Below, piece by piece: positions 48,187-51,784 of a stretch of 64,000 nucleotides of DNA (positions are counted from its first letter, which is position 1; every line of letters starts with the position of its first letter). The translations under genes were made by a program, and so were the position numbers. The stretch covers positions 682,001-746,000 of the forward strand of contig NZ_JAGQAG010000001.1 of assembly GCF_021405525.1 (NCBI RefSeq), given 5' to 3'. The DNA is from Ruegeria pomeroyi. Its GTDB lineage: Bacteria; Pseudomonadota; Alphaproteobacteria; Rhodobacterales; Rhodobacteraceae. The notes beneath the pieces were generated by a model. It was not told where the DNA came from and did not search any database. It saw only the letters and a program-made list of their open reading frames with translations.

Positions 48187-48612
48187 ATGGGTGACAAGAC
48201 ACTGACATGTCTGGCTTGTGGCCAGCTCAACCGCGTACCCGAGGCCCGGCTGAACGCTGGCGCCAAATGCGGGAAATGCGGCGAGGGGCTGGTCACGGGT
48301 CAGGCGCGGGATGTTGATCCCGCGATCCTCGAAAAGGCGAAGAAGAATGACGACTTGCCGCTGGTGGTCGATTTCTGGGCGCCATGGTGCGGCCCTTGCC
48401 GCATGATGGGTCCGGAATATGCAAAAGCCGCCGGGGTTTTGGCGGGGCAGGCGCGGCTGGTGAAGCTCGATACTCAGAAACACCAGTCCACCGGAGGCCG
48501 ATACGGCATTCGCGGCATTCCGACCATGGTCGCCTTTGAACGTGGCAAGGAAAAGAAACGCCAGTCAGGCGCGATGCAGTCCGGGCAGATCGTCGGTTGG
48601 GTGCGCGGCTAG
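48187..48612 (+). CDS. trxC: Thioredoxin TrxC (thioredoxin 2) with N-terminal zinc finger
   Basis: A 141-residue thioredoxin-2. The N-terminal zinc module has two pairs, CLAC (8-11) and CGKC (28-31); the thioredoxin domain follows with VVDFWAPWCGPCRMMGP holding the redox WCGPC at about 67-71 and the cis-Pro in GIRGIPTMVAFERG. TrxC reduces cytoplasmic disulfides, particularly in oxidative stress. The start ATG 48187 follows GGAGAGCCGAG. Same direction as the following small membrane gene. Confidence 0.95.
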   Translation: MGDKTLTCLACGQLNRVPEARLNAGAKCGKCGEGLVTGQARDVDPAILEKAKKNDDLPLVVDFWAPWCGPCRMMGPEYAKAAGVLAGQARLVKLDTQKHQSTGGRYGIRGIPTMVAFERGKEKKRQSGAMQSGQIVGWVRG

Positions 48613-48665
48613 AAAACATTCTTATACTTGAATGTGATTTCTGGCCAGGTTATATGTACCTCAAG

Positions 48666-48684
48666 GCCGGGCGCGTCGCCCGGC
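48666..48684 (+). terminator. GC-rich hairpin between trxC and the DUF2892 gene
   Basis: Arms GCCGGGCG (48666-48673) and CGCCCGGC (48677-48684) around CGT, 54 bases after the trxC stop. No T-run follows, so it may be an mRNA-stabilising or weak terminating structure. Confidence 0.45.
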
Positions 48685-48704
48685 AATTGACAGGAGTTGG
48701 ATGA

Positions 48705-48905
48705 ATGACCCTCGATCGTGCCGTGATGATGTTTGCTGGCTTCATGGTGTTGCTCAGCGTCTTGCTGACCGCGCTGGTCTCGCCCTTGTGGATGTGGTTC
48801 ACCGTGTTCATCGGCGTGAACCTGATCCAGTCCTCGGTCACCGGTTTCTGTCCGGCGGCCATGGTTCTGAAGAAGCTGGGGTTCAAGGCCGGGACCGCGT
48901 TCTGA
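48705..48905 (+). CDS. DUF2892 (YgaP-like) small membrane protein
   Basis: A 66-residue inner-membrane protein of the DUF2892/YgaP transmembrane type: two helices (RAVMMFAGFMVLLSVLLTAL and MWFTVFIGVNLIQSSVTGF) followed by CPAAMVLKKLG, the conserved Cys-Pro turn. In YgaP this module is fused to rhodanese; here it stands alone. CAGGAG lies upstream of ATG 48705. It may deliver or accept sulfane sulfur at the membrane, but that is inferred from the fused relatives only. Confidence 0.85.
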   Translation: MTLDRAVMMFAGFMVLLSVLLTALVSPLWMWFTVFIGVNLIQSSVTGFCPAAMVLKKLGFKAGTAF

Positions 48906-48917
48906 GCGGGGCCGGGC

Positions 48918-49133
48918 TTAACCGTTGACGGTTCTGCCGCCGGTCACCGGCTCGGCGGCAGGGACGCGAATATCACGCAGCATGAAGAGAAGAATGACCG
49001 CGACTGCAATGGCAGAGCCGGTCACCGGGTAGAGCAGTAGGGCCGCCCAGAGCGGCAACTCCCACAGGACACAGGCAAGGATGCTGCTGGCAAGCCCGGC
49101 AAGCGTTCCCAGGAAGACTCCGATCCAAGCCAT
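48918..49133 (-). CDS. Small two-helix membrane protein of unknown function
   Basis: A 71-residue protein with two hydrophobic segments, IGVFLGTLAGLASSILACVL (4-23) and AALLLYPVTGSAIAVAVILLFML (30-52), and a polar tail. GAGGGACCTT precedes ATG 49133, a reasonable ribosome site. It is convergent with the DUF2892 gene, 12 bases apart. No family recognised. Confidence 0.65.
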   Translation of the reverse strand: MAWIGVFLGTLAGLASSILACVLWELPLWAALLLYPVTGSAIAVAVILLFMLRDIRVPAAEPVTGGRTVNG

Positions 49134-49364
49134 AAGGTCCCTCTCCCAAACATTTTGAAATCGCGCTGGACGACTCTCGATGCTGAGACAGTCTAGGGAA
49201 GAATGTGTTCAAAATATGTTAACCTCTGGAGGTCGGCATTGAGGGTTGTTCATGGCGGTCGGGCTTAGGGTTTTTGCTGCTGCTACCCTTTCGAGGTAAT
49301 GCTTACTGCGAGTTGGAGCAGGTCAAATCCAATCGCAGGGCGGTTCGCTCTCTTTTGAATGAAA

Positions 49365-49384
49365 GGGCGGCCCGAAGACCGCCC
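49365..49384 (-). terminator. UUCG-loop intrinsic terminator of the 31-residue peptide gene
   Basis: On the minus strand GGGCGGTC-TTCG-GGCCGCCC (49384-49365) forms an eight-pair stem (one G-U) with an exceptionally stable UUCG tetraloop, followed by TTTCATTC. It starts four bases after the stop codon of the small gene, as a dedicated terminator would. Confidence 0.75.
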
Positions 49385-49388
49385 AACG

Positions 49389-49484
49389 TTACACGAGAAA
49401 ATCGAGCATCGTTAGCAAGAGTGCGATTGTGCTGATAAAATCGGCATAAGACACTCGCCCTTTCAGTTTGAATGAAAACCGCAT
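49389..49484 (-). CDS. Putative 31-residue membrane peptide
   Basis: ATG 49484 to TAA 49391-49389 encodes 31 residues: a basic start (MRFSFKLKGRVS) and a hydrophobic helix (FISTIALLLTMLDFLV). GAGGA lies eight bases upstream of the ATG, and a strong intrinsic terminator begins four bases after the stop, so all parts of an independent gene are present. The codon use is AT-rich compared with the neighbours. The basic-then-hydrophobic layout is that of small membrane regulators or type I toxin peptides, but no homologue is recognised and no antisense RNA was identified. Confidence 0.6.
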   Translation of the reverse strand: MRFSFKLKGRVSYADFISTIALLLTMLDFLV

Positions 49485-49859
49485 TGGATTTTTCCTCAGC
49501 GATGCTCATCCGGATGAGCGTTAAAGTTCGCTCAGTATTTATATACCGCCCCAATTACAGCGGTTTGGCCTGCTCCTATGATCACTTGGAGCTACCGTTC
49601 GACGGTCACCCGCTCAGCACATACTGTCGGACCGCCTTAGCTTACTCCCTGCTAAGGTTTCAACATAGCGCCGCTAAGCACTTGCAACATCCGGGCAGAC
49701 GCTGAAGTTGCCCACATCGTGGGTCTTCATGCCCGCCACACGGTGGCTTTGTCACCTCCGATGCCGTCGCAAAATATAGATGCAACGACACTGGTCTTCA
49801 ATAGATGTTCAAGTATGTGTCCAGTTTGACCGCCCACGATCGTTCCCGTCAGACCTAGT

Positions 49860-49914
49860 GTGGGCAATCTTGCCCACCGTGTACGAGTGGGAGTGGTGGG
49901 CAGAGTTGCCCACC
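49860..49914. repeat. REP-like double palindrome downstream of ettA
   Basis: Two inverted repeats in head-to-tail order: GTGGGCAA-TC-TTGCCCAC (49860-49877) and GGTGGGCA-GAGT-TGCCCACC (49895-49914), the second followed by CTACGG so that the reverse strand reads GTAGGGTGGGC, a core common in REP elements of many bacteria. A degenerate third copy (GCCCACATCGTGGGT) lies near 49712-49728. The cluster sits 59 bases beyond the ettA stop, a typical 3' position. Confidence 0.7.
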
Positions 49915-49972
49915 CTACGGTGTTCCGCGAAAAGCGACTACTGCGCGCGCGTCTGATCAATCACTTGGTGAT

Positions 49973-51628
49973 CTACCGCACGAACTTCTTGTGCTTCAAC
50001 CGCTTGGGTTCCAGCGCGTCCGGGCCCAGGCGGCGCTTCTTGTCCTCTTCGTAATCCTCGAAGTTGCCTTCGAACCACTCGACATGTGCGTCGCCCTCGA
50101 AAGCGAGGATATGGGTGCAGATGCGGTCGAGGAAGAAGCGGTCGTGGCTGATGACAACGGCGCAGCCGGCGAAATCGACCAGCGCGTCTTCGAGCGCGCG
50201 CAGGGTTTCAACATCGAGGTCGTTGGTCGGTTCGTCGAGCAGGATGACGTTGCCGCCCTCTTTCAGCAGACGCGCCATGTGCACCCGGTTACGTTCGCCG
50301 CCTGACAGCAGCGAGACCTTTTTCTGCTGGTCGCCGCCCTTGAAGTTGAAGGACGAGCAGTAGGCGCGGCTGTTCACCTGGGCATCGCCCAGCTGGATGA
50401 TCTCGGCGCCGCCGGTGATCGCCTCCCAAACGGTATCGCCATCTTTCAGATCGTCGCGCGACTGGTCGACATAGGAGAGCTTGACCGTATCGCCGATCTC
50501 GATGGTGCCGGCGTCGGGGGTTTCCTGCCCGGTGATCATCTTGAACAGCGTCGATTTACCGGCACCGTTGGGGCCGATGACGCCGACGATGCCGCCGGGG
50601 GGCAGCGAGAAGTCGAGCCCTTCGATCAGTTGCTTGTCACCCATGTGCTTCGACAGGCCGTTGACCTCGATCACCTTCGATCCCAGACGCGGGCCGTTGG
50701 GTATGACGATCTGGGCGCGGCCGACCTTTTCCCGCTCGGACTGGCTGGCCATCTCGTTATAGGCCTGGATGCGGGCCTTGGATTTGGCCTGACGCGCCTT
50801 TTGCCCCTGCCGCATCCATTCCAGTTCGCGTTCCAGCGTCTTTTGCTTGGCCTTGTCCTCGCGCGCTTCCTGTTCCAGGCGCTTGGCCTTCTGCTCCAGC
50901 CAGGCGGAATAGTTGCCCTCGTAGGGGATGCCCCGGCCGCGGTCGAGTTCCAGGATCCAGCCGGTGATGTCATCCAGGAAATAGCGGTCGTGGGTGACGA
51001 TCAGGATGGTGCCCTTGTAGTCGATCAGGTGCTGTTGCAGCCAGGCGATGGTTTCGGCGTCCAGGTGGTTGGTCGGTTCGTCCAGCAGCAGCATGTCGGG
51101 CGCTTCGAGCAGGAGCTTGCACAGCGCGACCCGGCGTTTCTCGCCGCCCGAGAGGTTGGCGATATCGGCGTCGTCGGGGGGGCAGCGCAGGGCCTCCATC
51201 GAGACGTCGATCTGGCTGTCGAGATCCCAGAGGTTCTCGGCGTCGATCTGGTCTTGCAATTGCGCCATCTCGTCGGCCGTCTCGTCGCTGTAGTTCATCG
51301 CCAACTCGTTGTAGCGGTCGAGGATGTCCTTCTTGGCCTTGACGCCCAGCATGACGTTCTCGCGCACGGTCAGGTTCGGGTCGAGTTGCGGCTCCTGCGG
51401 GAGATAGCCGACCTTGGCGCCCTCGGCGGCCCAGGCCTCGCCGGTGAAATCCTTGTCGAGGCCCGCCATGATCTTCATCAGGGTCGATTTACCGGCACCG
51501 TTGACACCGACGACGCCGATCTTGACCCCGGGGAGGAAGCTCAGGTGGATGTTCTCGAAGCATTTCTTGCCACCGGGGTAGCTCTTGGAAACACCCTGCA
51601 TGTGGTAGACATATTGATAGGCGGCCAT
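49973..51628 (-). CDS. ettA: Energy-dependent translational throttle protein EttA
   Basis: An ABC-F ATPase that binds the ribosomal E site and gates the first step of elongation according to ADP/ATP ratio. The 551-residue protein has two ABC domains: Walker [10 protein letters not shown] and GPNGAGKST, signatures [18 protein letters not shown] and [17 protein letters not shown], and Walker [12 protein letters not shown] and [11 protein letters not shown]. Between them lies the charged linker [25 protein letters not shown] (P-site tRNA interaction motif). The start ATG 51628 begins [15 protein letters not shown], standard for EttA. There are no membrane segments. Confidence 0.97.
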
Positions 51629-51784
51629 GTCGTGTCCTCTGGGTCGGGGGAAGTCGGGTTGGCCGGTGTGATAGCGAATGGCGAGGATGGGGGCAATCGC
51701 TGGCGTGACCGAAGATGACGCAGCTGTGCATTGTATCCGGCCTGGCCCCCATGCAGCATGAAGCGCGCGGTTTCGGGGATAGCG

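Follow-up and report, generated by a model that had tools for sequence, protein, structure and literature searches.

The window analysed here, a 64,000-nucleotide stretch of Ruegeria pomeroyi DNA, carries on its minus strand a real gene for a small membrane-type peptide of 31 residues with its own terminator, as sequence comparison confirms; it was judged to be real beyond chance chiefly because it is conserved in other genomes. Peptide gene and terminator lie at the end of a conserved structured RNA of ~330 nt (49365–49690, minus strand), whose extent was drawn from similarity across members. On comparative grounds both the coding claim and the structured-RNA claim are near certain. On balance, the unit would appear to be an mRNA that encodes a membrane-active peptide, is kept silent at the level of translation and operates in the manner of a type I toxin mRNA.

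The open reading frame (ORF) occupies 49484–49389 on the minus strand (31 codons, stop included) and was read directly as MRFSFKLKGRVSYADFISTIALLLTMLDFLV followed by the stop codon TAA, giving a peptide with a basic N-terminus and a hydrophobic C-terminal half. A GAGGA ribosome site (49493–49497, minus strand) is situated 8 nt 5' of the ATG, and each of the eight further members whose peptide can be aligned has, by reading, a GG-containing site at the same position. Four bases 3' of the stop is an intrinsic terminator hairpin with a UUCG loop (49384–49365, minus strand; GGGCGGTC-TTCG-GGCCGCCC, then a weak tail TTTCATTC), which occurs in the same position in all nine alignable members. The initial annotation had described this frame, its ribosome site and its terminator, and each could be read directly from the DNA. 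Its remark that the interval is AT-rich also holds, with a G+C content of approximately 0.46–0.53 across 49100–49700 versus mostly 0.60–0.65 on either side. The combination of basic N-terminus and hydrophobic stretch which it had noted sets this ORF apart, in that 1 of the 282 ATG-started ORFs of 24–40 amino acids in the window passes a mean hydropathy of at least 2.0 over 15 residues together with an N-terminal net charge of at least +2, these cut-offs having been chosen after the peptide was already known. This sole ORF is also one with a Shine-Dalgarno (SD) sequence and terminator. The annotated limits of 49365–49484 were too small, since the conserved unit reaches ~49690 and a promoter candidate is found at 49801–49773; the long structured RNA at the 5' side had been overlooked.

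The unit occurs as a single copy in this genome. Its ORF is flanked by the gene of EttA (49976–51640, minus strand), which scores 947 bits with TIGR03719, where the cut-off is 807, and by a small minus-strand ORF (48918–49133). The latter would encode 71 hydrophobic residues and has no NCBIfam name, and its DNA is conserved among congeners. Between 49719 and 49914 there are three occurrences of the palindrome GTGGGCnnnnnTGCCCACC, which is REP-like and recurs at other places in this genome as well as in congeners.

Using several search approaches, 12 members of the family were identified, nine with an alignable peptide and three more distant (L068, L071 and L079). The nine are the window, L021, L025, L054 (a Paracoccaceae MAG), L055 (Pseudaestuariivita rosea), L056 (Sulfitobacter sediminilitoris), L057 (Frigidibacter sp. 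RF13), L059 (Actibacterium ureilyticum) and L060 (Roseovarius sp. OFTM168). A DNA search of 394 genomes of the bacterial family gave matches in 20, of which seven were long (the window genome included) and 13 covered the terminator stretch only. That stretch (49358–49384) matches these 13 other genomes by itself, and the hairpin seems to be a form common within the family. A peptide profile matched 13 of the 394 genomes, seven of them at E ≤ 1.5e-16 and identical to the seven of the DNA search; the six weak matches (E 0.036–0.087) were left out of the member count. A DNA pattern scan of a collection of 84,980 species returned seven loci, comprising four known genomes, two new members (L056 and L060) and one locus (L058) that has no such peptide and was taken as a chance match. 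The peptide by itself, used as query against 60 relatives, gave no other copy; this search missed genome G008, in which the RNA model later found a member.

With a DNA query spanning 48600–50300, the flanks were matched in the four other genomes of the genus (on one contig in G001, G002 and G004, and on two contigs in G003) but the unit was not, and the covariance model had no match in 13 loci from the same four genomes. In G004, the nearest congener, the gap after ettA (L015) consists of different DNA with an ORF and REP-like repeats; we take this ORF to resemble a REP-associated transposase.

The pattern of change among the members is that of a coding sequence. Across the nine ORFs, the variable columns amount to 84, 42 and 94% at codon positions 1, 2 and 3, with mean entropies of 0.75, 0.31 and 1.17, the third position thus being the most variable and the second the least. 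The peptides of L025 and L060 are identical while eight bases differ, and M1, R2, G9, D15, T19, L22 and L24 are invariant among the eight distinct peptides. These codon-position counts were relied on because the dN/dS method gave faulty output, returning -1 for saturated pairs and a dN of 0.015 for L025/L060 despite their identical peptides. In none of the nine does either strand contain a frame that stays open from one end of the RNA to the other. Judged from these counts, the peptide of the nine members is under purifying selection. Comparison with relatives, which the initial annotation had proposed as a means of refutation through frame-disrupting changes, found the frame intact in all eight other alignable members, and the four congeners without the unit. 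The absence from these congeners, whose gap differs, is what a chance ORF or a decaying remnant would have in its favour, yet such an origin is scarcely credible with a frame conserved and an RNA covarying across different genera; a chance ORF in particular was ruled out by this conservation.

The 5' part of the RNA contains two hairpins with UAGC loops (UUGC in the second hairpin of L054), both recognised by comparison of members. These are H1, with a UUAGC loop (49667–49682, minus strand), and the H2/P2 region, with the second UAGC and a downstream GCUAAGG (49636–49656, minus strand). The sequence of the second stem varies freely and its complementarity is kept, the stem being weak in the window (4 pairs) and in L054 (3 pairs). 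The downstream GCUAAGG, which L068 lacks, is complementary to either UAGC loop, and this loop pairing is nearly invariant across members; a pseudoknot between the two is possible. An interaction between the SD and the UAGC loops was considered and rejected, as it fits only some members.

Further downstream, covariation indicates helices P4 (49567–49596), P5 (ACCGCY/GGGCRGU; 49545–49564), P6 (49515–49534) and P8 (49470–49511), all on the minus strand. RNAalifold predicted 66 pairs, 19 of them showing two-sided changes. In a 140-nt core comprising P4, P5, P6 and P8, 91.8% of 304 cells are paired in the nine members and 11 pairs have two-sided changes; none of 500 shuffles reached either value, and slid versions paired at 30–47%. 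When L068 and L071 were added, using an eleven-member alignment (A6) fitted to the covariance model, 91.4% of 373 cells were paired with two-sided changes in 20 pairs and 37 cells, and again 0 of 500 shuffles reached 20 such pairs. The shuffle controls retain the effect of shared ancestry, and the structure was derived from the same sequences on which it was scored; finding further members with the nine-sequence model is a better check on the RNA structure.

The helices next to the ORF share their strands. P6 is formed by strands A and B, the hairpin P7 (49504–49519, minus strand) by B and A', and P8 by A' with codons 2–5, so that P7 competes with P6, and P8, which shares strands with P7, encloses and buries both the SD and the AUG. 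P7 is fully paired in the members aligned: all 54 cells pair across nine of them and all 66 across eleven, the latter set showing eight two-sided changes. Strands A, B and A' read GGGC, GCCC and GGGC in L068 and GAGUG, CACUC and GUGAG in L071, all three being altered together in each case, which supports P6 and P7 alike. In L021 a G-C pair of P8 is replaced by U-A, the Arg2 codon thereby becoming AGA. The four-base loop of P7, CCGG in the window, was read as self-complementary in all 12 members (CCGG, GGCC, CAUG or GCGC). A scripted search for P7 chose another hairpin in 10 of the 12, and an alternative hairpin, P5' (49533–49548, minus strand), was found in that way; 53 of its 54 cells pair in the nine members, and by reading it is weaker in the distant ones (5 of 6 pairs in L068, 4 of 6 in L071).

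The distant members were found with the RNA models, which covered samples of 394, 385, 11 and 349 genomes, the three large searches scoring no more than 8 or 9 candidates in each genome. Model R1, built from the nine alignable members, matched 10 of the 394 family genomes (the seven, L068 in G008 at E 1e-16, and two weak) and 7 of 385 in the class sample, namely the window genome, L071 in G699 of another family (E 4e-8) and five weak ones, the best at E 5e-4. Model R2 matched 2 of 11 genomes in the family of G699, one of them weakly, and 3 of 349 in the phylum sample: the window genome, L079 (in G887, marked as of the same phylum and hence of a different class; E 3e-4 at 27 bits) and a weak match, L080. 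The membership of L079 depends on these 27 bits and on manual reading of its ORF. The weak covariance matches (L069, L070, L072–L078 and L080) were excluded from the member count after reading the DNA of L069, L070, L072–L075 and L080 and inspecting the alignments of L072, L078 and L080, with L076 and L077 excluded on scores alone.

Where the peptide start falls, L068, L071 and L079 have ORFs of 35, 26 and 33 residues, with a hairpin after the stop in the first two and possibly in L079 (by reading). Their best 15-residue hydropathies are 2.75, 2.09 and 1.76 and their N-terminal net charges 2, 1 and 2, respectively, so the ORFs of L071 and L079 fail the cut-offs applied to the window. These ORFs are short, hydrophobic to varying degree and unrelated in sequence to the nine peptides, and the RNA core is kept; as far as these searches indicate, the core is conserved over a wider species range than the peptide sequence. 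This range is one reason to consider a dual-function RNA, whose structured part would be a trans-acting small RNA with the peptide secondary, and the conserved UAGC loops and the self-complementary P7 loop could indeed pair with other RNAs. Such a role is nonetheless improbable, as P8 joins the leader to the peptide's own codons and the peptide frame is under selection.

Seven of the nine units begin 95–598 bp after ettA on the same strand, and the two Roseovarius units are elsewhere. Over 21 pairs, leader identity correlates with ettA identity at r 0.53 and ORF identity at r -0.06; the leader tracks ettA loosely and the ORF does not, so that long residence and transfer are indistinguishable. 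L079, the copy of the RNA core in G887 (L081, 5840–5976), is placed inside a lambda-like prophage, with a gene resembling replication O on one side and a CI-like repressor on the other; genes like those of NinB, RecT and RecE are close by, as is an endolysin. Queries with the window, L057 and L079 gave no plasmid or phage match among the searches made, and four exact patterns had zero matches in viral contigs. In L068 and in L071 a protein gene occurs within ~150 bp downstream of the unit. The downstream proteins (L082 4634–5278 and L083 5640–6182; 214 and 180 aa as searched), from two unrelated genomes, are distantly alike (E 9e-5 in a single comparison), contain an RNxxxH motif in both cases and matched no Pfam or PADLOC model. 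The motif presumably resembles that of HEPN nucleases.

The position beside ettA in seven of nine units, together with the invariant G9, D15 and T19, which suggest a specific partner, would suit a regulated, non-toxic small membrane protein that tunes a membrane partner, its leader being a riboswitch or thermometer that opens P8. The same coding and covariation evidence fits such a protein, which we nevertheless hold to be rather unlikely, since L068, L071 and L079 keep the RNA and not the peptide sequence and the unit is missing from most of the family genomes sampled. Two further readings of the locus were dropped. A long inverted repeat around the unit in the window fold (~49316–49336 with 49549–49580) had hinted at mobile-element termini, but the genome has a single copy and relatives were read to have no such repeat past the terminator. 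An attenuator for a downstream gene does not agree with a terminator that comes after the stop or with a downstream gene that is not shared (by reading).

A toxin-like mRNA was retained as the preferred reading on three grounds: conservation of the fold in which the start site is buried, the scattered placement of the unit and the presence of one copy in a prophage. Two features by which type I toxin-antitoxin loci are recognised were found here, a short hydrophobic peptide (the nine conserved peptides) and a start site hidden by mRNA structure (P8, from covariation and by comparison only). Taken with the long 5' structure and the scattered placement, they match type I toxin mRNAs by analogy. 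Under this reading the locus would yield a single RNA of roughly 330–400 nt that codes for the membrane peptide of 31 residues and, in cis, keeps it repressed. During transcription P6 would form first, P7 by strand exchange and then P8, which would hide the SD and AUG and leave the nascent RNA untranslated. P8 might be opened by processing, by 30S/S1 loading at the 5' hairpins, by RNA pairing or by a ligand, and the released peptide would enter the inner membrane, where an excess would be expected to slow or stop growth.

Published type I mRNAs bury their start site and some use mutually exclusive folds, according to PMC11228461 and PMC6733600. The enterobacterial timP/TimR (ryfA) system has, as described in PMC11228461, an mRNA of ~300 nt with a structured 5' part that encodes a small membrane protein, as here, and its start site is buried in a hairpin with mutually exclusive folds, both of which are also read here. 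It differs in that model R2 had no credible match at timP (best 3.6 bits) and the peptides are unlike; homology was sought by RNA-model searches and peptide comparison and none was found, nor was a TimR-like RNA at this locus. In aapA/IsoA of Helicobacter pylori, likened by description rather than sequence, hairpins form sequentially during transcription and hide the SD (PMC6733600), similar to the model proposed here, but that system has an antisense RNA with no conserved counterpart here. Also by description, tisB of tisB/IstR-1 has a buried start site, an upstream element needed for translation and a pseudoknot (as reported in PMC11228461), the pseudoknot here being only possible.

The antisense RNA that helps to define type I systems has no conserved gene here, which counts against the toxin-like reading, as do the four congeners without the unit and the failure of L071 and L079 at the window cut-offs. 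For the sense strand, a promoter candidate TTGAAG-17-TATATT (49773–49801, minus strand) has a score reached by 0 of 100 shuffles; the corresponding figure is 1 of 100 in L059, L025 and L060 and 12–56 of 100 in the other five. An antisense candidate in the window, TTAGCA-18-TAAAAT (49412–49441, plus strand; 2 of 60 shuffles), reads across the start site at a position that is not conserved. L025 and L060 have theirs elsewhere (1 of 60 for each), at a place shared with L057 (6 of 60), and 10–57 of 60 shuffles reach the score in the remaining five. Promoter scanning against shuffles thus gave no antisense gene conserved across the nine members, and the antisense RNA raised in the initial annotation is not supported as a conserved feature, the window candidate being at an unshared place. 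From these figures a separate promoter is likely for some of the members, and the antisense candidates do not establish a gene.

No Rfam model scored above cut-off for the unit. The Rfam ryfA model (timP mRNA), which does recover the E. coli locus, had no window match at the gathering score, nor at E up to 5 in 49240–49860, and a match to STnc430 overlapping the unit in L026 (E 0.56; 28.8 bits where the cut-off is 47) was taken as chance. None of the seven peptides searched matched NCBIfam and nothing in Pfam was above cut-off, one of the seven giving FixQ at E 0.14. Among the literature matches listed there was nothing on this RNA-peptide family, and one passing mention of type I toxins in this bacterial family. 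The suggestion of a small membrane-peptide gene stands, and the libraries searched have no entry for it; its type I toxin-like character is kept as the best reading, at slightly better than even chances.

The RNA-plus-peptide family is new to the public libraries searched. We suggest, tentatively and as a doubtful extension, that it may be a new family of toxin mRNAs that silence themselves, perhaps without antisense RNA, in which the chain of exclusive hairpins and the self-complementary loop would control the peptide, maybe via mRNA-mRNA pairing so that release tracks RNA amount, and in which the unit would be mobile across proteobacterial classes, travelling between chromosomes and prophages. 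The family is a compact model in which to ask how an mRNA escapes translation while being made. Retention of the RNA alongside a drifting peptide sequence illustrates how genes of this kind escape annotation based on protein similarity, and with the covariance model more members can be sought.
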